This document shows positions 7,920 through 44,360 of a stretch of 64,000 nt of DNA, piece by piece. The notes under the pieces were generated by a model, which saw nothing but the letters and a program-made list of their open reading frames with translations, made no database searches and had not been told where the DNA came from. The position numbers and the translations under genes are program-made. Each line of letters starts with the position of its first letter. Position 1 is the stretch's first letter. Source of the stretch: Streptomyces sp. ADI95-17 (GTDB lineage Bacteria > Actinomycetota > Actinomycetes > Streptomycetales > Streptomycetaceae); the NCBI RefSeq assembly GCF_003846175.1, contig NZ_ML123044.1, positions 1,647,427-1,711,426 on the forward strand, given 5' to 3'.

Positions 7920-8723
7920 TCACTTCATGTGGCAGATGCTCTTGCCGTGACACGGCTTGGGCTTCGGCTTCGGCTTGCACTTCTTGTCGTGCTTGTCGTG
8001 CTTGTCGTGGCACGGCTTGGGCTTCGGCTTCGGCTTGGGCTTCGGCTTCGGCTTGCACTTCTTGTCGTACTTGTCGTGCTTGTCGTGGCACGGCTTGGGC
8101 TTCGGCTTGCACTTCTTGTCGTGCTTGCTGTCGCACGGCTTCTTCGCGTCCTTCGCGACAGAGATGCAGGCCTGGTCCTGGTTCGACCGCACGGTCCCGT
8201 TCTCGGCGGTGGCCACCGCCCGGTTGACGACCTCACCGCGCCGGGCGTCGGCGGCCGTGACCCGGTAGGTGCCGGTACAGGTGGTGCTGTCACCGGACCG
8301 CCCGGCGGGGGCGAGAGTGGTCGCCTCGCAGGTCACACCGGTCACCCGGTCGTCGGTGACCGAGACCCCCGTCAGCTCCTGCGAACCGGTGTTGGTGACG
8401 GTGTACGCGTACGTCACCTCGTCGCCCACCTCGTACTTGTGCGAGTCGTCCACCGTCTTCGTCAGCAGCAGCCCCGGCTCGGTCTCGGCCTCGGTCCGCA
8501 GCCGGACGCTGTCCGGCTCCGACTCCACCTCCCGGGAGCCGGACCGCCCGTGCGCGGCGGCCATGTTGACGACCGTCCCCCGCGCGGCGTCCGCCCTCCC
8601 ACCGGCGTACGCATCCGAGTTACGGCCATCGGCCGGCCGTGGACCTCGGGGACTGCGGGGACTGCGGGGACTCCGGGGACGGGCGAACGGCGGAACGAGG
8701 GGCCGGGGGCCGGGGGCACGCAC
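7920..8723 (-). CDS. DUF11-repeat protein with Cys/His/Lys-Pro tail, probably N-terminally truncated
   Basis: 267 residues. The start region is Pro/Arg-rich with no signal peptide. ARGTVVNMAAAHGRSGS is the end of one DUF11 repeat; a full DUF11 repeat follows (LLLTKTVDDSHKYEVGDEVT...VTNTGSQELTGVSVTDD). The last ~90 residues are low complexity, with three CHDKHDK / CDSKHDK-type blocks ending KKC, alternating with KPKP runs of different lengths. DUF11 proteins are normally secreted, and here the first repeat is cut and the export signal is missing, so the 5' end appears lost. The tail could bind metal or wall polymers; this is speculation. A true start further upstream with a frameshift cannot be excluded. 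Confidence 0.55.
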   Translation of the reverse strand: MRAPGPRPLVPPFARPRSPRSPRSPRGPRPADGRNSDAYAGGRADAARGTVVNMAAAHGRSGSREVESEPDSVRLRTEAETEPGLLLTKTVDDSHKYEVGDEVTYAYTVTNTGSQELTGVSVTDDRVTGVTCEATTLAPAGRSGDSTTCTGTYRVTAADARRGEVVNRAVATAENGTVRSNQDQACISVAKDAKKPCDSKHDKKCKPKPKPCHDKHDKYDKKCKPKPKPKPKPKPKPCHDKHDKHDKKCKPKPKPKPCHGKSICHMK

Positions 8724-36866: not shown

Positions 36867-37625
36867 ATGGCCGACGCACCGTACAAGCTGATCCTCCTCC
36901 GCCACGGCGAGAGCGAATGGAACGCGAAGAACCTGTTCACCGGCTGGGTGGACGTCAATCTCACGGAGAAGGGCGAGAAGGAGGCAGTCCGCGGCGGTGA
37001 GCTGCTCAAGGACGCCGGTCTGCTCCCCGATGTCCTGCACACCTCCCTCCAGAAGCGCGCCATCCGCACCGCGCAGCTCGCGCTGGAGTCCGCGGACCGC
37101 CACTGGATCCCGGTCCACCGCTCCTGGCGGCTGAACGAGCGCCACTACGGCGCCCTGCAGGGCAAGGACAAGGCGCAGACGCTCGCCGAGTTCGGCGAGG
37201 AGCAGTTCATGCTCTGGCGCCGCTCCTACGACACCCCGCCGCCCGCCCTTGAGGACGGCACCGAGTTCTCGCAGAGCGACGACCCGCGCTACGCGTCGAT
37301 CCCGCCGGAGCTGCGCCCGCGCACCGAGTGCCTCAAGGACGTCGTCGACCGCATGCTGCCGTACTGGTACGACGACATCGTGCCGGACCTGCTCGACGGC
37401 CGGACCGTCCTGGTCGCCGCCCACGGCAACAGCCTCCGGGCCCTGGTCAAGCACCTCGACGGCATCTCCGACGCCGACATCGCGGGCCTGAACATCCCGA
37501 CCGGCATCCCGCTCGTCTACGAACTGGACGCCGACTTCCGCCCGCTGAAGCCGGGCGGCACGTACCTCGACCCGGACGCGGCGAAGGCCGCCATCGAGGC
37601 CGTGAAGAACCAGGGCAAGAAGTAA
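36867..37625 (+). CDS. gpmA: 2,3-bisphosphoglycerate-dependent phosphoglycerate mutase
   Basis: 252 residues. The catalytic [20 protein letters not shown] (phospho-His in RHG), the basic substrate loop [12 protein letters not shown], the acidic general-acid segment [20 protein letters not shown] and the second His [14 protein letters not shown] are all present. It interconverts 3- and 2-phosphoglycerate in glycolysis. Its own promoter lies in the 228-bp gap to the MFS gene. It ends at a hairpin beside the mobile element. Confidence 0.95.
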
Positions 37626-37639
37626 CGGGAAAAGCGATC

Positions 37640-37678
37640 ATGCCTCCCACCTGCATTTTCCGTGCCGGTGGGAGGCAT
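37640..37678 (+). terminator. gpmA terminator
   Basis: ATGCCTCCCACC (37640-37651) pairs perfectly with GGTGGGAGGCAT (37667-37678), followed by TTTTC. It marks the last core base pairs before the integrase gene. Confidence 0.9.
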
Positions 37679-37706
37679 TTTCACGCCCCGGGTCCACTGT
37701 GGGCCC

Positions 37707-38945
37707 TCAGTGCGGCGGATCCTGCGACGGCCGAAGCGCTTGGCCAAGTGCCTTCCGGGCACGGTCCCGGCTGCTGGGCATGAGGTGCGCGTACACCTTC
37801 AGCGTCAACCCGGTGTCGGAGTGCCCGAGGTATTCACTAACGGCCTTGATGCTCTCGCCCGCGTCCAGGAGCACGGACGCGTAGAAGTGCCGGAGGGCGT
37901 GCATGCCGTGCTCCCGTGCGGCAGCGTGCTCCCGACTCTTGGCTTTCGGGATAACGCCCACGGACGCCAGGGCGGGCTTCCAGTGGTCCTCATTCAGCGA
38001 CGTACGCCAGACGTGGCCACCGTTGGGCCCACTGAAGATCAGGCGCTTGGTCACGGGCTGGCCGTTCGACCGCATCCACGGCAACGTGATCTCTGCGGGC
38101 GGGAACCGCTCGATGTGCCCCTTGAGCGCTTCCGCCACCGGATCGGGCAGAGGTACGTCGCGAAGCTTGCCGCCCTTCGGAGGCGCGAACACGGGCTTGC
38201 TCAGGCTGAGTTTGAGCTGCTGCACCACATGCAGGGTGCCGCTGTCGAAGTCCACCTCATCGACACACAACCCGAGGATCTCGCCTTGCCGTAGCCCGCA
38301 GCCGGCGCCCACGTCGACCATGGGCCGGAAGCGTTCGGTCATGGCGGCCCGCACGGCGAAGACGCGTTCCGGCTGCCAGGGAACGACGCGGCGCGTGCCC
38401 ATCTCGGGGAGCGTCACCGTGCACGAGTTGCACGGGTTCCGGCGAAGGTATCCGTCCTCCACGGCTGCGGAGAGCACGGCGCGGACGTTGGAGAAGATCA
38501 CGCGGGCATACGCGCCGGACATGCCGGACGCTTCGAGCTGGGTCACGAACTCGCGGATGTGGCTGGGCTGGAAGGACCCGAGGGGGCGCGACCCGATACG
38601 CGGGAGGGCGTGCCGCGTGAGTTGGGACTGCATGGATGCGCGGGTGTTCGGATCCCCGCTCTGGCTCGCGAGCCATCCTTCCGCGAACTCCTGGAACGAC
38701 GTACGAGAGGCGTTCGGGTCGATGTAGTCGCCGCGGGCCACGTCCGCCGTAACTTTGCTCAGCCACTGCTCAGCTAGCCGCTTCTGTCCGTCGGGGAACG
38801 ACTTGCCCTTGCGCTTGCCGTCGGGCGCGAAGTAGCGGGCCCGGTAGCGCAGGCCGGTCCCATGGCGCTCGGTCTTGACGCGGACTGACTTGCCGTCCGC
38901 GTTGCTCTCGGTCCTGAACCAGCGGTCTTGGATGCTGCCTGCCAT
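37707..38945 (-). CDS. int: Tyrosine site-specific integrase
   Basis: 412 residues from ATG 38943-38945. Arm-binding AP2-like N-terminus (RYRARYFAPDGKRKGKSFPD), SAM-like core-binding domain (TSFQEFAEGWLASQSG) and catalytic domain with Arg in GAGCGLRQGEILGL, His/Arg in MHALRHFYASVLLDAG and the nucleophilic Tyr in LKVYAHLM. All four catalytic residues are present, so it looks active. It lies only 28 bp from the gpmA terminator, so one att end should be here, but no tRNA is seen at that side. Confidence 0.9.
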   Translation of the reverse strand: MAGSIQDRWFRTESNADGKSVRVKTERHGTGLRYRARYFAPDGKRKGKSFPDGQKRLAEQWLSKVTADVARGDYIDPNASRTSFQEFAEGWLASQSGDPNTRASMQSQLTRHALPRIGSRPLGSFQPSHIREFVTQLEASGMSGAYARVIFSNVRAVLSAAVEDGYLRRNPCNSCTVTLPEMGTRRVVPWQPERVFAVRAAMTERFRPMVDVGAGCGLRQGEILGLCVDEVDFDSGTLHVVQQLKLSLSKPVFAPPKGGKLRDVPLPDPVAEALKGHIERFPPAEITLPWMRSNGQPVTKRLIFSGPNGGHVWRTSLNEDHWKPALASVGVIPKAKSREHAAAREHGMHALRHFYASVLLDAGESIKAVSEYLGHSDTGLTLKVYAHLMPSSRDRARKALGQALRPSQDPPH

Positions 38946-39097
38946 GTGGGCTGCGGCCTCTCGGTTGGTGGTGCCTGCCCTTGTCAGGGAGAGAGGCAGA
39001 GGGGGTGTCGTGGAAGTGGCTGTAGAGGGGGTTTCGGGGTGGCTGAGAAAGGTACCTCCCTGCCTCCCTGGATGGGGGTTTGCGCTGGTCACCGGCA

Positions 39098-39133
39098 GGG
39101 AGGCGGTCAGGGCGTTCTCCCTGACCGCCTCCC
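39098..39133. repeat. 15+15 bp perfect inverted repeat (GGGAGGC family)
   Basis: GGGAGGCGGTCAGGG (39098-39112) and CCCTGACCGCCTCCC (39119-39133) flank a 6-base loop CGTTCT. The loop and arms are echoed by the hairpin at 39305-39342, so the two are diverged copies. Confidence 0.9.
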
Positions 39134-39304
39134 TCGGTCGGAGGGGCTGCCTCCCTGGCCTGCTGTCGTGTTCTTCACGGTCCGATGGGGAGGCAGGGCA
39201 GGGGGTGTGTTGGGCGGCTTTCCGCCGGGGTTCCGGGGGCTTTTGGTGGCGCCTCCCCGCCTCCCCGAATTGCTGTTTCCGCTGGTCGGTGTGGGGGAGG
39301 CAGC

Positions 39305-39342
39305 GCGGGGAGGCGGTTGGGGTGTTCTCCCCGCCTCCCCGC
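39305..39342. repeat. 12+12 bp inverted repeat, second copy
   Basis: GCGGGGAGGCGG (39305-39316) and CCGCCTCCCCGC (39331-39342) are perfect arms; the loop again has GTTCTCC. It is homologous to the 39098-39133 structure about 200 bp away. Confidence 0.85.
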
Positions 39343-39541
39343 ATGGCGAGGGTGTCCCTCCCCGTGCGTCCGGCCCCTCTGGACGGGGGCTTGACGCAGA
39401 GGCGCGGTACCCGCCTTTACCGCCCTTACCGCGCAGGTCAGAGGCCATTACCTACCCCTCTGCCGGGGTAAAGGGCCCCCTCTACCGGCCAGCGCCGGGT
39501 AGAGCCGTCGGCGACGGCCAGTTCGCGCGGTGGATCGGGGC

Positions 39542-39571
39542 CCGGGGTAGAGGGGGAGGCCTTTACCCCGG
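39542..39571. repeat. Palindrome of the GGGTAAAGG family next to xis
   Basis: CCGGGGTAGAGG (39542-39553) and CCTTTACCCCGG (39560-39571) match at 11 of 12 positions, six bases from the xis stop. Related words occur from 39410 to 39500. Possible arm-type or Xis sites. Confidence 0.7.
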
Positions 39572-39577
39572 GGTGGA

Positions 39578-39814
39578 TCAGCCGGCGTCGCATGCGGTCT
39601 GCTGGTCGACCCAGGCGCGGACGGCCGCAGGGTCGAAGCGCAGGTGCTTGCCGACCCGGAACCCCGGCGGCCCGATGTGCTTGCGGCGCCACTGGTAGAC
39701 GGTCTCGACGCTCGGAAGGCTGAACATGATGACCAGGTCTTCGGGGGTGAGGTAGCGGTCCGGGAGTCCGGCACGGAGGGTCGCGCGGGGGTCGGTCGTC
39801 TTGGGCGGGATCAT
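39578..39814 (-). CDS. xis: Excisionase-like HTH protein
   Basis: 78 residues from ATG 39812-39814. MerR-like HTH_17 fold: RYLTPEDLVIMFSLPSVETV then YQWRRKHIGPPGFRVGKHLR and FDPAAVRAWVDQQ. The same fold is used by AlpA and Xis proteins that direct integrase toward excision in actinobacterial elements. It lies beside the integrase, separated by the palindrome-rich region, which could be its binding target. Excisionase activity is inferred from family and location. Confidence 0.8.
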   Translation of the reverse strand: MIPPKTTDPRATLRAGLPDRYLTPEDLVIMFSLPSVETVYQWRRKHIGPPGFRVGKHLRFDPAAVRAWVDQQTACDAG

Positions 39815-39990
39815 GCCGCCGGTCCTCCCGGCGGCATGCGGGTGCGGGGTGGCCGCGCAGGTGGCCGTGTGGCCACGGCGTATGAGCAGGTCACACCCCG
39901 GCCGTTCAGGCGATCGGGTGGCCGCGCGGGTGACTGCCAGGGGTGTACGAATGGGCGTGACGCGGGGTGTGACGCGGGTCGTCACGCTGG

Positions 39991-40167
39991 TCAAAGCTGG
40001 AAGCCCAAGCGGTGGGCCCGGATCGTCGCCTGGGCGTGGACCGGGCACAGCATGGCGGGCTGGTCGTTGCCCTCTTCGTAGACGGCGCGGATGCGGCGGG
40101 TACCCCTGCACGGGCAGTCGCCGTCGACTGCGGCGGTAGCGTTGCGGAGCCTCGTCTCCTCGCTCAT
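39991..40167 (-). CDS. Small protein with CPC...CPVH motif
   Basis: 58 residues from ATG 40165-40167. It has DGDCPCRGTRRIRAVYEE followed by MLCPVHAQATIRAHRLGF, a spaced C-x-C and C-x-x-H that could bind one Zn as a small ribbon. Similar tiny proteins occur in actinobacterial integrative elements and phages. It opposes the small ORF at 40275; the ~107-bp gap would hold divergent promoters. A longer in-frame N-terminus is possible. Function unknown. Confidence 0.45.
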   Translation of the reverse strand: MSEETRLRNATAAVDGDCPCRGTRRIRAVYEEGNDQPAMLCPVHAQATIRAHRLGFQL

Positions 40168-40274
40168 GCCGTCACGGAAGACACTGTTCGACGCCTGCTG
40201 ATCGGCCACAGCCAGCCGCCCCGTCTTCGGGAACCGCTGCTCGTGGCGCTGCAGGATCTGAACTCTGGACGCGG

Positions 40275-40460
40275 GTGAGCAAACGAAACGCTCAGCACGA
40301 AGCGGATCCGAACTCGATCTTCTTCTCGGAGAGCGACCTGGCCCGCTACCGGACACGGTTCGTCCCGCCTCAGGATGATGAGCCTCACATCACCTATGGC
40401 GGTGACCCTAATTCGGTGCTGAAGGCTCTCGAAGAGGCCGGACTGAAAACTGAGTGCTAG
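40275..40460 (+). CDS. Small acidic protein in the mobile element (61 aa)
   Basis: GTG start at 40275, encoding MSKRNAQHEADPNSIFFSES then DLARYRTRFVPPQDDEPHIT. It ends just before a long hairpin. A frame from 40012 ends by GTGA overlap with this start, but it runs antisense to the CPC gene and has weak coding character, so it is left out. The composition is protein-like, but no family is recognised. Confidence 0.45.
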   Translation: MSKRNAQHEADPNSIFFSESDLARYRTRFVPPQDDEPHITYGGDPNSVLKALEEAGLKTEC

Positions 40461-40499
40461 ACGCTAGGCCCCTGATCAGAGGGCCATTTGGCTGCTAGT

Positions 40500-40545
40500 G
40501 CCCCTGCTAGACCTAGCACCCGCCCCTGCTAGGTCTAGCAGGGGC
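40500..40545 (+). terminator. 19-bp perfect hairpin after the small ORF
   Basis: GCCCCTGCTAGACCTAGCA (40500-40518) pairs with 40527-40545 over an 8-nt loop. It lies 40 bp after the 40460 stop, so it is probably a terminator, though no T run follows. CTAG words inside make it unusual for Streptomyces, where CTAG is rare. Confidence 0.75.
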
Positions 40546-40635
40546 GTTCAGCGGGTGTCCCGCCGGAAGGGTAAGACGCGTGTACTCCGAAGCGGGCCTA
40601 CTTGGAGGTTCGCACCTGTCCAAGGACTGGATTTC

Positions 40636-40854
40636 TGCGTCACCGCGTCATCTGCGTCGCGCATGGCCGCTGAGCTGCGGTTTTGTGGTGACGCAGGGGT
40701 GTGGGGGTGCGTCATCGGTGACGCAGGCGTGTGTCACCGATGACGCACGTGGTGACGCAGGTGACGCAGGATGACGCAGCCGAATCCGCTCTGCGTCACG
40801 CCTATCGCAGCAGCTCAGGGGCCGTTTCGGGTCTGCTGGTGACGCTGTGACGCA
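40636..40854. repeat. Iteron array: ten TGACGCA words
   Basis: TGACGCA or its complement TGCGTCA occurs at 40636, 40689, 40708, 40719, 40741, 40753, 40762, 40772, 40792 and 40848; near copies also occur. Copies are in both orientations with 9-10 bp spacing in the densest part (40753-40778). Iterons of this kind bind replication initiators or element regulators. No Rep gene is seen in the element. Confidence 0.8.
40708..40747. repeat. 15+15 bp perfect inverted repeat inside the iteron array
   Basis: TGCGTCATCGGTGAC (40708-40722) and GTCACCGATGACGCA (40733-40747) flank a 10-nt loop. The arms contain three TGACGCA words. It can extrude as a cruciform, as at many plasmid and phage origins. Confidence 0.9.
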
Positions 40855-40965
40855 GACTTTCATTACTTAAGAAAAAAGAGAGGGTGTCTGTTGTAGTTCG
40901 GTGCGCCTCACAGCGTGAGGAAGGAGCCGCTGCGCGGCGCGACTACCGCCCGGCGTCCGCCGAAC

Positions 40966-41007
40966 AGCAAGAGGAGCACGCCCGCCCGACGGGGTGCTCC
41001 TCTTGCT
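40966..41007. terminator. 14-bp stem terminator near att-like repeat A
   Basis: AGCAAGAGGAGCAC (40966-40979) pairs perfectly with GTGCTCCTCTTGCT (40994-41007). The same AAGAGG...CCTCTT type of hairpin follows the tRNA-Arg fragment at 43953-43984, so the two lie in similar contexts. Confidence 0.8.
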
Positions 41008-41090
41008 TGTGCGGGCCAACAGCCGCAGTCGCCATCCGGCGGAGCCCCCGGCGGCTGAGGCGCCGAAGGTCGTCCGCCGAAGGCGGTCCG

Positions 41091-41223
41091 CTCTGGGCCC
41101 TCTGTGGGACCTCCGGGAACGACCAACAACGACAGGCAACGGCCATCAACAACCGCTCGACCGCAGCTCAGCCGGGGTGCCCGCCGCTCCGACCAGGGGC
41201 GGAAAACGGGCCTGCCAGACCCA
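41091..41223 (+). repeat. att-arm-like repeat, copy A
   Basis: Starts CTCTGGGCCCTCTGTGGGAC, then runs through GACCAACAACGACAGGCAAC and ends in AAAACGGGCCTGCCAGACCC. By eye it aligns with 44091-44212 at roughly 75% identity in the same orientation. Both copies follow hairpin terminators, as do arm regions beside tRNA integration sites. Confidence 0.6.
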
Positions 41224-41840
41224 CGTACCGATGAGGGCCCGTCATCGTGGACCGACCGCGTTGAATAGCTGGTCGAGGAAGCGGGCTTCCGAGGTAAAAA
41301 CGCCTACAAATCCGGTGATGCCGCGACCGTGGCCTTCTGCCAGTGGTGGCCAGGAAAAACAGGCGGGCGGCCTGACATCAGCGGCCGACACCAACCGGCG
41401 TACACGTGCGCACAGCGGCTCACCGTTCGCACGATGAGTCCCGCGAGTGACCAGCTGGGTTCTCCAGACGGAGAGTGGTGATTACGGGGGCACGCCCACA
41501 AATTCTTATCAGAAAGGCGGTTCGTCGGGCCATTGCGAGATGCTGACCTGACTAGCAAGATCGGCGAGCCCATCATCTTTGAGAGCACCCGCGTATTCTG
41601 ACCGCTTGGACCAAGGGATAGCTTCGAGCAGGACGCGGTGCATCCCAAACCGGTTATGACGGGATCCCGCTGAGTTACTCCTTCAGGCTGTCGTCATCGT
41701 CCTCAATTGGCGTGTCGGGAAACACCGCATGGTCGCCCCGTTACCGTGCGGGGGTCGACCACAAAGGACTGCCCGGCGGCTGGCGGGTAAGGGCTCCGCC
41801 AGCCGCGTAGCGGCGTAGCCCGATCGAGAGGATCTGGACC

Positions 41841-43367
41841 TTGAGCGATTTTTCCCGCCGCTACCTGCTCAGGGCGTCAGCGGCCGCCGGCGCCGGGGCG
41901 ATCGTCATCCCGGGCCTTACGGCCGCGGGCGCGCCGGACATTGCGGCCGCGAGCACCTCGGGCCTTCTGGCCGCGAGCGACCCGACTAAAGGGTCGTCGG
42001 GATGTCCGCCGGCGAAGCTGACCGGTCGCGTCGTCCGCCCCGGTGACGCCTCGTACACGGATGATCGCATCGACTACGACCAGCTGTTCTCTCACTACCC
42101 GCTGGTCATCGTCTTCGCCCAGGAGACCCAGGACGTGGTGAACGCCCTCACCTGGGCGCGGCAGCACAACGTCGCACTGCGGGTACGCAGCGGCCGCCAC
42201 GCCCTGGAGGGCTGGTCGAACATCGACAACGGCATCGTGATCGACGTCAGCCAGCTCAAGTCGGTCCACATCGACACCGACGCTCGTATCGCGACGGTCG
42301 GCGCCGGCCTGACCCAGTTGGAAGCGGTGACGGCGCTCGCCAAGCAGGACCTCGCGGTCACGACCGGAAGCGAGGGCAGCGTCGGCTTGGTCGGTGCGAC
42401 GGTCGGCGGCGGCCTTGGCCCCCTCAACCGCTGGCTCGGCATGGCCTGTGACAGCCTGATCGGGACCGAGGTCGTCGTCCCGTCGGGTCGCGACTGCGCC
42501 GAGGTGATCCATGCCGACCTGAAGGACCACTCAGACCTGCTCTGGGCGCTCCGTGGGGCGGGAAACGGCAACTTCGGAATCGTCACGCAACTCACCTACA
42601 AGGTGCACCCGCTCAAGCGCATCGCCTATGTGCAGGCGACCTGGGACGGCCTTACGGACCTGCATGGGATCTTCGATGCATGGCAGCGTACGGTACCGTT
42701 CGCCGACAACCGCCTCGGATCCGAAGTCGAGATCCACAAGTCCCAGATCCTGCTGTTCGCGTGGCTCGCGGAGGGCACGGCGGCAGAGGCCAGAAAGATG
42801 CTGGCCCCGATCCTGTCGATCGGCACGCCCGATGTGAAGATGCAGGTCGGTAACTGGGGCCCCATCTTTGCCGGAGCCCAGGTCCCGCGCTCGCAGGAGC
42901 CCGCCAACGTGAAGTTCTTCTCACAGTTCGCCAAGAAGCTGTTCCCGAAGAAGGCGATCGACGTCATCGGCTACTACATGCGAAACGCTCCCACGGAGGA
43001 CAGCAACTACTTCGTCGATGCCTTCGGCGGGGCAATCAAGAAGGAGCCCCGCGGCGGCACCGCTTTCGTGCACCGCAACGCGATTTTCTACGGCGAGATC
43101 GGCGCAGCCTGGGGGACTCCTTCAACGACACCAGGCGTCTGCGACCCGCTCACCTCGACGTGCCAGGCCTGGACCGCCGAATTCAGCCAGGCGATGCGCA
43201 GCTTCGTGGACGGCGCCTACGTCAATGTGCCGAACGTCGGCATGCAGGAGTGGGAGACCGCCTACTGGGGGAGACGCCACTTCGAGCGGCTGCGCGAGAT
43301 CAAGGCGAAGTACGACCCCTGCAACGTCTTCCAGTACGAGCAGAGCATCCCGCCCGCGTCACGCTGA
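41841..43367 (+). CDS. Tat-exported FAD-linked oxidase, BBE type
   Basis: 508 residues from TTG 41841, preceded by GAGAGGA. A twin-arginine signal (SRRYLLRASAAAGAGAIVIP) precedes a FAD_binding_4 domain. The covalent-type His is in RVRSGRHALEGWS, and GSEGSVGLVGATVGGGLGPL and GNGNFGIVTQ mark the flavin loops. A C-terminal BBE segment (YDPCNVFQYEQSI) is present. The usual Cys of bicovalent flavin is not clear. Such secreted oxidases act on sugars, alkaloids or antibiotic intermediates. It lies between two att-like repeats, so it may be cargo. Confidence 0.8.
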   Translation: MSDFSRRYLLRASAAAGAGAIVIPGLTAAGAPDIAAASTSGLLAASDPTKGSSGCPPAKLTGRVVRPGDASYTDDRIDYDQLFSHYPLVIVFAQETQDVVNALTWARQHNVALRVRSGRHALEGWSNIDNGIVIDVSQLKSVHIDTDARIATVGAGLTQLEAVTALAKQDLAVTTGSEGSVGLVGATVGGGLGPLNRWLGMACDSLIGTEVVVPSGRDCAEVIHADLKDHSDLLWALRGAGNGNFGIVTQLTYKVHPLKRIAYVQATWDGLTDLHGIFDAWQRTVPFADNRLGSEVEIHKSQILLFAWLAEGTAAEARKMLAPILSIGTPDVKMQVGNWGPIFAGAQVPRSQEPANVKFFSQFAKKLFPKKAIDVIGYYMRNAPTEDSNYFVDAFGGAIKKEPRGGTAFVHRNAIFYGEIGAAWGTPSTTPGVCDPLTSTCQAWTAEFSQAMRSFVDGAYVNVPNVGMQEWETAYWGRRHFERLREIKAKYDPCNVFQYEQSIPPASR

Positions 43368-43902
43368 TCGACAGTTCGCCGTCGGGGCCCGGCCCCGGTC
43401 AGGCTCGGCCTTTCACGCAGAAGGGACCGACGCAGTCGAAGGGGTGTCGTTAGCCTCGATCTTGCATGAGGGATCGTCAGCTTGCTGACGATCCCTTTGC
43501 TCGTTCAGAGTGAAGATTTCTGCTTGCGGGCAGGGCTGATGGTCCGGCTGTCGTGCCGGGTGGGCGCCGGGTTCCACGGCTCCGGTTGTGATGGTGCTGG
43601 TAGCAGGTATGGGATGCTGCTGGTCAGCCAGGGTTGGGCAGAGCTTCGAGCCGGTCGAGGGCGATCTGGATGATCTCCAGCCAGATCTGGCTCTGGGGCG
43701 TGTCGTGCAGGGCAGGTTGCGCAGGCCGGTGGAACGGGCGGCGCGGATGCGGTCCTCGGCGCGGACGCGCGGTGCTGACATCAGCAGCTGACATCGACAA
43801 GCACGGACAGCGGTGCATAGTCACGGACGGTTACCTGAAGCAAGGTGCGACGTTGATGCATTGGATGGCTTCTGCGACTTGATCGACTGCGACCTGCACG
43901 CG
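43368..43902. other. Region with transposase debris
   Basis: No intact gene. It contains an inverted repeat near 43476-43493 (AGGGATCGTC...GACGATCCCT type) that may terminate the flavin oxidase, and an IS1380 transposase fragment further on. Confidence 0.6.
43624..43781 (-). pseudogene. IS1380-family transposase remnant
   Basis: On the minus strand RVRAEDRIRAARSTGLRNLP runs to a one-base deletion near 43710 and resumes in another frame as LHDTPQSQIWLEIIQIALDR then LEALPNPG and a stop. The RAEDRIR...GLRNLPLHD...NQIWLEI pattern is the conserved C-terminal part of IS1380 transposases. Only ~55 residues remain and the end is changed, so it is dead. Confidence 0.75.
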
Positions 43903-43946
43903 CCTACGGATCAGAAGGTTGCAGGTTCGAATCCCTGCCGAGTGCA
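43903..43946 (+). pseudogene. 3' fragment of tRNA-Arg(ACG), displaced att site
   Basis: Anticodon loop CTACGGA with 3' stem TCAGA, then the variable loop, T-arm GCAGG-TTCGAATC-CCTGC (one extra C) and acceptor half CGAGTGCA. No 5' half precedes it; the sequence before 43903 is unrelated. This is the usual mark of an element that integrated into a tRNA 3' end and pushed the old end outward. An AAGAGG hairpin follows at 43953. The intact tRNA is not in the window. Confidence 0.7.
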
Positions 43947-43952
43947 AACAGA

Positions 43953-43984
43953 CAAGAGGCCCCGGAGAGATCCGGAGCCTCTTG
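43953..43984 (+). terminator. Hairpin after the tRNA-Arg fragment
   Basis: CAAGAGGCCCCGGA (43953-43966) pairs with TCCGGAGCCTCTTG (43971-43984) with one mismatch around GAGA. It is the old tRNA-Arg terminator carried with the fragment. Confidence 0.8.
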
Positions 43985-44090
43985 CGTTTCCCGGCGGGCG
44001 GAGGGGGCCGTGCTCGCAAGCCCGGTGGGAGGCTGCTCCTCTTCGTGAGTGAGGGTCCGGGGCGACACCGCCGGGCCCTCACTGGGCCCT

Positions 44091-44212
44091 CTCTGGGCCC
44101 TCCGAGGAGGACCAACGACGACAGACAACGGCCACCAACGACCGCCCAAACGAAGGTCAGTTGGGGCGCACACCTCTCTGACCAGCGGCGAAATACGGGC
44201 CCGCCAGGCCCA
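44091..44212 (+). repeat. att-arm-like repeat, copy B
   Basis: Starts CTCTGGGCCCTCCGAGGAGG, runs through GACCAACGACGACAGACAAC and ends AAATACGGGCCCGCCAGGCC. By eye it is about 75% identical to 41091-41223. It lies 145 bp after the tRNA-Arg fragment. Confidence 0.6.
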
Positions 44213-44360
44213 GGGCAAGAAGTAGCCCCGAACGGTCGAGCCCCCTGCCTGCGGATTTGCCCGCGAGCAGGGGGCTTGTCGCTGTCCCGGGACCGCCGTA
44301 TCGAGGACGGCGGCAGGTCTGTCGGGGGACTCTTCCAAGAGACCCTGTCGGGAAACTCCG

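Follow-up and report, generated by a model that had tools for sequence, protein, structure and literature searches.

What a dense array of short repeats does in Streptomyces DNA where no initiator gene adjoins it is the question raised by positions 40636-40854 of the window, i.e., the whole 64,000-nucleotide stretch analysed here. A preliminary description, based on the letters of the window, had seen in these 219 bp a candidate origin of replication arranged around a cruciform and belonging to a helper-dependent element.

Copies, clustering and layout of the array

Ten exact copies of TGACGCA, distributed over both strands, are present at 40636-40854 just as initially described, and the shorter word TGACGC occurs there 12 times. 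Over the entire 64-kb window, TGACGCA is found 13 times versus 9.7 expected, a count reached by 12 out of 100 shuffles; the unusual feature is the clustering of the word and not its rarity. In 200 dinucleotide shuffles of the window, the maximum per 219 bp was two copies, and 2000 shuffles of the 219-bp region itself yielded three at most. The inverted repeat within the array is also real, with 19-nt arms at 40707-40725 and 40730-40748 that are 95% complementary, its longest perfect part being 16+16 with a 10-nt loop, but the emphasis placed on it did not survive comparison with relatives. In 12 other arrays, perfect inverted repeats reach 8 to 18 bp at most, depending on the array, and, in the alignment, the window array is ~11 bp longer than the arrays of loci L036 and L037 at this very position. 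The cruciform was thus rejected as the key feature, for it is not conserved among relatives, and is incidental.

The search for TGACGCA arrays in other Streptomyces elements, as suggested in the preliminary description, revealed that the same layout of ~280 bp recurs beside the gene of a VirE-like ATPase paired with a Prim-Pol gene, hereafter VirE-A, the integrative elements (AICEs) carrying it being referred to as class A. In an alignment of 24 arrays, this layout opens with reversed iterons and a CTGACCTGC arm; past a variable centre come direct iterons, one reversed iteron and a GCAGGTCAG arm, then further direct iterons, a CTTAGGAAAA box and a GTGTCTGTTGTAGT box, and in the AICE rows a terminator-like hairpin closes it. 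In the window, the corresponding putative origin (ori-A; 40617-40900, forward strand) consists of the ten iterons at 40636-40854, dyad arms at 40670-40678 and 40810-40818, an A-rich box at 40866-40880, and GGTGTCTGTTGTAGT at 40883-40897. The terminator-like hairpin follows at 40966-41007 (unstranded), which in class A sits between the origin and the VirE-A stop codon; the class-A homology of the window stops just past it, at ~41017, before the VirE-A coding region would start. With its ten iterons, the window array has as many as any of the 23 others, and its A/T-richest stretch (19/24 A/T at ~40854-40877) compares with only 12-17/24 at best in relatives, the richest 24 bp of L041, L042, and L043 being located elsewhere than the conserved CTTAGGAAAA box. 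Of note, both window arms depart from the family consensus in the same way, i.e., CTGAGCTGC/GCAGCTCAG instead of CTGACCTGC/GCAGGTCAG, and they consequently remain complementary. The array as a whole shows partial overall dyad symmetry.

VirE-A as the constant neighbour of the array

With 40560-40900 as a blastn query, 52 of 150 congeneric genomes gave array matches, in a few cases by short or weak hits only; as the screen scored four candidates or fewer per genome, and genome G069 has six VirE-A genes in all, the array places represent a lower bound. Among 67 distinct array sites with flanks, a set leaving out L188 and L189 (short matches with no array by profile) and four unfetched sites, VirE-A lies within 400 bp in 62 cases, with a median gap of 150 bp. 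At four further sites, the match coordinates place VirE-A 126-148 bp away. The five sites with no adjoining VirE-A are L013, L029, L064, L176, and L185, where L029, L064, and L176 correspond to three tra-less elements with a second VirE-like protein (VirE-B, see below), L185 is a partial array match near a contig end, and L013/L043 has an integrase ~2.5 kb from the array. This last place (L043 9403-9676, genome G131) represents another orphan TGACGCA origin, with a Prim-Pol gene ~5 kb away, and a search for VirE-A gave no match in the G131 genome. At none of the 67 sites was the array seen in core sequence devoid of an element, a situation that the preliminary description had regarded as incompatible with its proposal.

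The linkage was also followed from the protein side. A protein-only scan with VirE-A found 329 relatives, for which the best 80 loci were kept, all but two named Streptomyces, the others being a Wenjunlia and an Actinomadura. In 79 of these 80 best loci, six or more TGACGC are clustered within 260 bp, the cluster starting 134-203 bp past the VirE-A stop codon, and at the single miss the contig ends at the VirE-A stop codon. Within the loci sampled, the array behaves as a constant companion of VirE-A. Such a near-absolute two-way linkage to a Prim-Pol/VirE-like replication gene pair lends support to the candidate origin first proposed. Considering what is expected of an iteron origin, the array exhibits multiple short repeats with conserved spacing, and in relatives it stands beside a presumed initiator gene; in the window itself it does not, as was correctly noted at first, and this is precisely what makes the window copy unusual.

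Plasmids share this association. A search with 39560-41500 matched eight plasmid records; in three, all Streptomyces plasmids, the match extends over the array, which is located there between a ParA gene and a gene pair annotated as “bifunctional DNA primase/polymerase” and “ATP-binding” or “virulence-associated E family.” In AICEs, the array is located between xis and the VirE-A gene. Both VirE-A (66-70% amino acid identity) and the array are thus common to plasmids and AICEs. Relative to VirE-A, the array points one way in plasmids and the other way in AICEs, which is not contradictory considering its partial dyad symmetry. These neighbourhoods also bear on whether the array could be the centromere of a ParA system, as ParA follows it in the three plasmids, or the operator of the xis-int operon, which follows it on the same strand in class-A AICEs. 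However, AICEs have the array with no adjoining ParA (a match to ParA was found in only two of 20 chromosomal regions, L036-L055, ~8.5 kb away), the plasmid arrays adjoin VirE and ParA rather than int or xis, and the neighbour that stays constant is VirE-A; a centromere or operator role is scarcely credible.

As for VirE-A itself, Pfam recognised neither this protein nor the Prim-Pol ORF of L036, although it did recognise the plasmid Prim-Pol, and matches in NCBIfam and PHROGs were only weak or far below the cut-off. A full-length structural model reached a pLDDT of 55 overall, with a poor ATPase core, and gave no PDB match at E ≤ 0.001. The AlphaFold model of the C-terminal domain is better (pLDDT 71, above 80 in its best part), with helices preceding two strands, an order reminiscent of a winged helix; DNA-binding winged helices were matched only weakly, the best Foldseek match being CtsR on DNA at E 0.046, with none at E ≤ 0.001, and the resemblance to a winged helix is only suggestive. 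It is on account of the partner genes and of the layout that the array is read as an origin, where the TGACGC iterons would be contacted by VirE-A, probably via its C-terminal winged-helix-like domain, and the adjacent A-rich box would be opened by it. Two further observations were made about the VirE family. In G069, the chromosomal places L041 and L065 match int, VirE-A, and Prim-Pol alike, and their origins are identical. A third VirE group (L218-L226, nine relatives) is 61-63% identical to VirE-B and has no TGACGCA origin apart from one 17-bit match.

Transfer-site-like arrays and the 6.6-kb element

Clustered repeats can also serve DNA transfer in Streptomyces, and the repeats accompanying the tra genes of class-A AICEs were examined accordingly. 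Beyond Prim-Pol, these AICEs carry an FtsK-like gene of ~700 aa; Pfam FtsK_SpoIIIE was matched by five of eight Tra proteins at E ≤ 1e-3, with only two above the Pfam cut-off. The 260 bp past the Tra stop codon contain five or more copies of a single 7-mer in 29 of 40 class-A loci, compared with 0/40 upstream regions and 1/800 shuffles of dinucleotide blocks, the two identical G069 copies (L041 and L065) both being counted in the 40. The other 11 of the 40 Tra loci are below five copies, and the t41 Tra, i.e., the type found in the complete AICE at the same att site as the window element, has no downstream array (five loci, 2-3 copies). The motif follows the Tra type, namely CAGGGAGGC for most t39, GCCTCCCC for L174, CTGACACC for most t37, GCGACAAG for t52 and one t169, and CCCACTAC for t51, among others; the word catalogue is strict and misses the Tra-linked arrays of class-A L039, L166, and L170. 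These Tra-linked arrays look like clt/TRS sites, the 8-bp repeats to which TraB binds in Streptomyces plasmids (PMC4170104, in the portion available).

When searched for separately, the GCGACAAG array known from class-B elements (defined below) was matched in 40 of 150 genomes, most matches being short or weak; several of them lie ~3-5 kb from class-A TGACGCA arrays, in line with a Tra site. A CGGTTAC array was matched in 11 of 150 genomes, strongly in G074 only, and has no Tra assigned to it. Motif scans can also mislead, as illustrated by the seven copies of ACGACAAG at 7983-8122 of the window, which were rejected as an array since they form a coding repeat, Lys-Pro/His-Asp-Lys (KPKPKP/HDKHDK).

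The TGACGCA array could in principle be such a site, i.e., the place where an FtsK-like Tra starts DNA transfer, and the known Tra sites are indeed clustered 8-bp repeats (PMC4170104, in the portion available). Yet, most class-A Tra genes examined have a downstream array of their own, which is different and varies with the Tra type, so TGACGCA is not the usual Tra site. TGACGCA, on the contrary, stays beside VirE-A, and plasmids share VirE-A and the array with AICEs whereas just four of 20 AICE regions gave a match to the plasmid transfer protein, at 24-27%. A role as transfer start site is accordingly very improbable.

In the window, the array belongs to an element of 6615 bp (37610-44224) delimited by two copies of a 15-bp sequence from the gpmA 3′ end (ORF 36867-37625). 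The attL core CCAGGGCAAGAAGTA (37610-37624, forward strand) at this 3′ end is directly repeated as the attR core CCAGGGCAAGAAGTA (44210-44224, forward strand), and a complete AICE of G069, also at gpmA, is delimited by this core too (L041 7763 and 18812). The tyrosine integrase gene int (37707-38945, reverse strand) encodes 412 aa from the ATG at 38945 (Pfam Phage_integrase, 3e-14), with 92% amino acid identity to the integrase of L041 and 86% to that of L213; this start was chosen by the conserved N-terminus, as a 545-aa ORF extends to 39344 through the two following arrays. The first clt-like array (39062-39156, unstranded) is of the CAGGGAGGC type with four copies of AGGGAGGC, as found downstream of t39-type and one t173-type FtsK-like Tra. 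The second (39187-39340, unstranded) is of the GGGGAGGC type with six copies, a motif also present downstream of Tra in L174. The slot between int and xis thus holds arrays of the t39 and L174 types. Next comes xis (39578-39814, reverse strand), encoding a helix-turn-helix excisionase-like protein of 78 aa from the ATG at 39814 (Pfam HTH_17, 3.7e-7), whose homologues adjoin int in class-A and class-B elements.

Between xis and the origin, a 37-bp site of the GTGACGCGG type (39956-39993, unstranded) is common to class-A and class-B elements; this GTGACGCGG...GTCACGC site gave 20 blastn-short rows at 88-97%, i.e., ~13 distinct places after merging overlapping loci, and is perhaps an operator common to both classes. 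A small ORF of 61 aa (40275-40460, forward strand) is also found in class-B elements, with relatives left of the arrays at 73-80% amino acid identity in L064, L176, L210, L212, and L217 and 64% in L216; none was found in the class-A regions L036-L055, nor among the matches listed in a further locus comparison. A CTAGC-rich inverted repeat (40456-40545, unstranded) with three GCTAGAC is a weak candidate for a third clt-like array, similar words being present downstream of Tra in L180 and L186, also in few copies.

Right of the origin, an extra AICE right end lacking an att core (41095-41223, forward strand) is 78% identical to L041 18685-18813 and 79% to the right end of the window element itself, which points to accretion or deletion. 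It is followed by a cargo gene for a FAD-binding/BBE oxidoreductase (41841-43367, forward strand; Pfam FAD_binding_4, 1.6e-24, and BBE, 1.5e-18) and by a 3′ fragment of tRNA-Arg(ACG) (43904-43946, forward strand), whose core is common with the complete tRNAs, called tRNA-Arg(acg) by ARAGORN, in the VirE-A loci L094, L102, and L149. This fragment is probably the old attR of another AICE. Taken with the extra right end, it suggests a past tandem integration with an AICE using the tRNA-Arg site. The AICE right end of the element itself is at 44017-44209 (forward strand; 78% to L041 18631-18898).

Compared with an AICE, the element possesses a site-specific integrase and att sites; as regards a replication initiator, it has no VirE-A or Prim-Pol homologue, and no ORF of RepSA/RepAM size was seen among the remaining ORFs picked, and as regards an FtsK/SpoIIIE-type Tra, no match was obtained in the element with seven Tra queries. 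Like integrative mobilizable elements, it exhibits an integrase and no transfer machinery of its own, and its arrays match Tra-linked arrays, which may provide a cis site for the transfer system of a helper. The helper dependence initially proposed is thus favoured by the anatomy, with int, xis, putative origin, and clt-like arrays present, rep and tra absent, and relatives that are tra-less as well. It is the simplest reading, since the element retains the cis requirements for integration, replication and transfer and has lost the genes that act in trans for replication and transfer. We consider it likely that the array is the iteron origin of the Prim-Pol/VirE-type AICEs and plasmids and that its window copy resides in a helper-dependent, tra-less element. 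The element at the 3′ end of gpmA would replicate only if an incoming AICE brings VirE-A and Prim-Pol, and its transfer would need a matching FtsK-like Tra from this incoming AICE.

No such helper was found at home. A search for the cognate VirE-A gave no match in the host genome; in five other genomes, the same search found VirE-A in three, only a distant VirE-B in G023 and nothing in G131. Likewise, no match to the t39-type Tra was found in the host genome, when each of five other genomes gave one, that of G081 at only 29% identity. The host genome has six Prim-Pol genes, and none of the catalogue arrays was found around them. It can then be asked whether the element is a dead remnant, the array being the origin of a formerly resident AICE and the rest deletion or accretion debris with no present function. 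The second right end and the tRNA-Arg fragment point that way, as do the failure to match VirE-A or t39-type Tra in the genome and the fact that neither VirE-B nor an AGCGTCC array (both typical of class B, see below) was found in the window element. Against it, the int and xis ORFs and the att repeat are intact, ten iterons are present, and the arrays that have been kept are those needed in cis. With its right half scarred and no helper found in the strain, the remnant reading is for this copy a serious though less likely alternative; the element may still be mobile.

Tra-less relatives, probable origin capture and known systems

VirE-B, which shares 31-33% identity with VirE-A, was found at 20 places in 19 of 295 genomes, 11 of these places having more than 70% identity and defining class B. 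These elements have xis and an HNH gene in all 11 cases and int in 10, L215 stopping at a contig end; six of the 11 carry an L064-type GntR gene, and six have an ORF related to the 61-aa one of the window. Against PADLOC, the class-B HNH protein gave weak matches only (best 1.3e-6) and five other proteins none. Each of the 11 has two AGCGTCC arrays. The first comes right after the VirE-B stop codon, with four copies in L210 and at least five elsewhere, and the second is located at the far end; AGCGTCC is presumably the iteron proper to VirE-B. Seven Tra queries found no match in the 11 regions, and no Tra-size ORF stood beside VirE-B among the ORFs picked in six att-bounded class-B elements. 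Clear att repeats delimit L210, L211, L213, L216, and L217, to which L212 adds a 13-bp repeat at the gpmA core, also used by L213 and L217 with repeats of 20 and 18 bp, respectively.

Despite being tra-less, class-B elements are rich in Tra-type arrays, with at least two in six of the 11 versus none of 42 class-A loci, and no array cluster was found in nine control stretches (188 kb). The counts are three in L212 and L046, two in L210, L211, L214, and L064, one in L216, L217, and L176, and none in L213 and L215, where overlapping motif calls were counted once and CTACTGCC and CGGTTACC, derived from L212 itself, were not considered Tra-type; in L214, L064, L046, and L176, the att repeats are doubtful and some of the arrays may lie outside the element. 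As in the window, the xis-int slot holds a Tra-type array in seven of the 11, which is not what random debris would produce; the recurrence of such arrays in this slot and at the far end makes the class-B pattern harder to explain as debris. The window element looks like a derivative of this class, i.e., tra-less elements having their own VirE-B and AGCGTCC arrays and often several clt-like arrays.

A complete TGACGCA origin is also present in four of the 11, namely L064, L046, L176, and L215, and in G023 such a class-B element with ori-A stands in a genome where the search for VirE-A gave no match. A tree of 53 origins (L187 being left out) places the window with class-A L036/L037 at support 93/83 and L064 with class-A L040/L047/L169 at 99/97, the remaining L046, L176, and L215 making up a single clade (100/100). 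A change count assigning one change to class B takes only the plasmid rows as reference and was set aside in favour of AU tests. The AU test rejected a single clade of the five class-B-type origins (p 0.005); among pair and subset tests chosen after seeing the tree, it also rejected window plus L064 (p 0.001) but did not reject window plus the other three (p 0.24) or L064 plus the other three (p 0.17). By these comparisons, at least two separate origin acquisitions are indicated. The class-A terminator hairpin also follows the origin in the window and in L046, and its retention suggests a class-A AICE as the source of the cassette.

The foreign iterons could alternatively act as a decoy or incompatibility site, titrating the initiator or Tra of competitors and thereby blocking them. 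Foreign arrays would bind foreign proteins either way, and class-B elements do have their own VirE-B and AGCGTCC arrays; still, the whole origin layout has been kept, including arms, A-rich box and VirE-A terminator, which is beyond the needs of a decoy, and Tra sites would benefit a tra-less element. We regard this role as unlikely. Preferring a functional origin used through a helper, one can picture satellites of Streptomyces conjugative elements, which would be small, integrated and tra-less, collect the Tra sites of several different FtsK-like systems and, repeatedly and independently, ori-A, and be copied and exported by an incoming AICE, the window element being the extreme case with no initiator; on this wider generalisation our judgement is evenly balanced.

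Among known systems, phage satellites (SaPI/PICI, P4) are small integrated helper-dependent elements with primase/helicase initiators and iterons. Here, the helper would instead be a conjugative element, and the window element is devoid of an initiator of its own. The relatives resemble SLP1-type AICEs (Prim-Pol plus the SCO4618-like “RepPP”), with Prim-Pol followed by a second replication gene and int, xis, and tra modules. SLP1 uses tRNA-Tyr, and the Streptomyces violaceoruber member with the array (L109) likewise has tRNA-Tyr beside it. The window element differs in having no Prim-Pol, second gene or tra. Regarding SLP1, the portion available of PMC3218068 describes Prim-Pol genes and places the SCO4617/SCO4618 pair in a region important for replication, with no origin sequence given there; SCO4618 would correspond to VirE-A. 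The searched papers thus give the genes and no origin, and the present array points to the origin of the Prim-Pol/VirE AICE replicons. A search of the open-access literature retrieved neither an account of this origin nor one of tra-less elements bearing several Tra-type arrays.

The clt/TRS of Streptomyces TraB (pSVH1, pIJ101, pJV1) are clustered, type-specific 8-bp repeats with FtsK-like recognition (PMC4170104 and PMC9513070, as far as available), the latter noting that a clt had not been described for pSAM2. In contrast, at least two array types stand together here in elements where no tra gene was found, and the comparison provides motif-to-Tra assignments for about ten transfer-site types. 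DAICEs and AICE remnants are, like the window element, AICE-like with modules missing and are suggested to be mobilisable by helpers (accessible parts of PMC9513070 and PMC3218068), the latter mentioning elements devoid of tra or rep as possible mobilizable elements; DAICEs, however, are defined by traB, whereas here no traB was found and foreign transfer-site-like arrays and a putative origin are present. IMEs also have their own integrase and pirate the transfer machinery of a conjugative element, but in the consulted portion of PMC5704250 this is relaxase-based, single-stranded transfer, when the present case would involve a double-stranded Tra, clt-like sites and a helper origin. Whether AICEs can hijack the TraB of another element is asked in the discussion of PMC9513070 (2022), and tra-less elements with several Tra-type arrays make such hijacking directly testable, as the helper would be predicted from the array.
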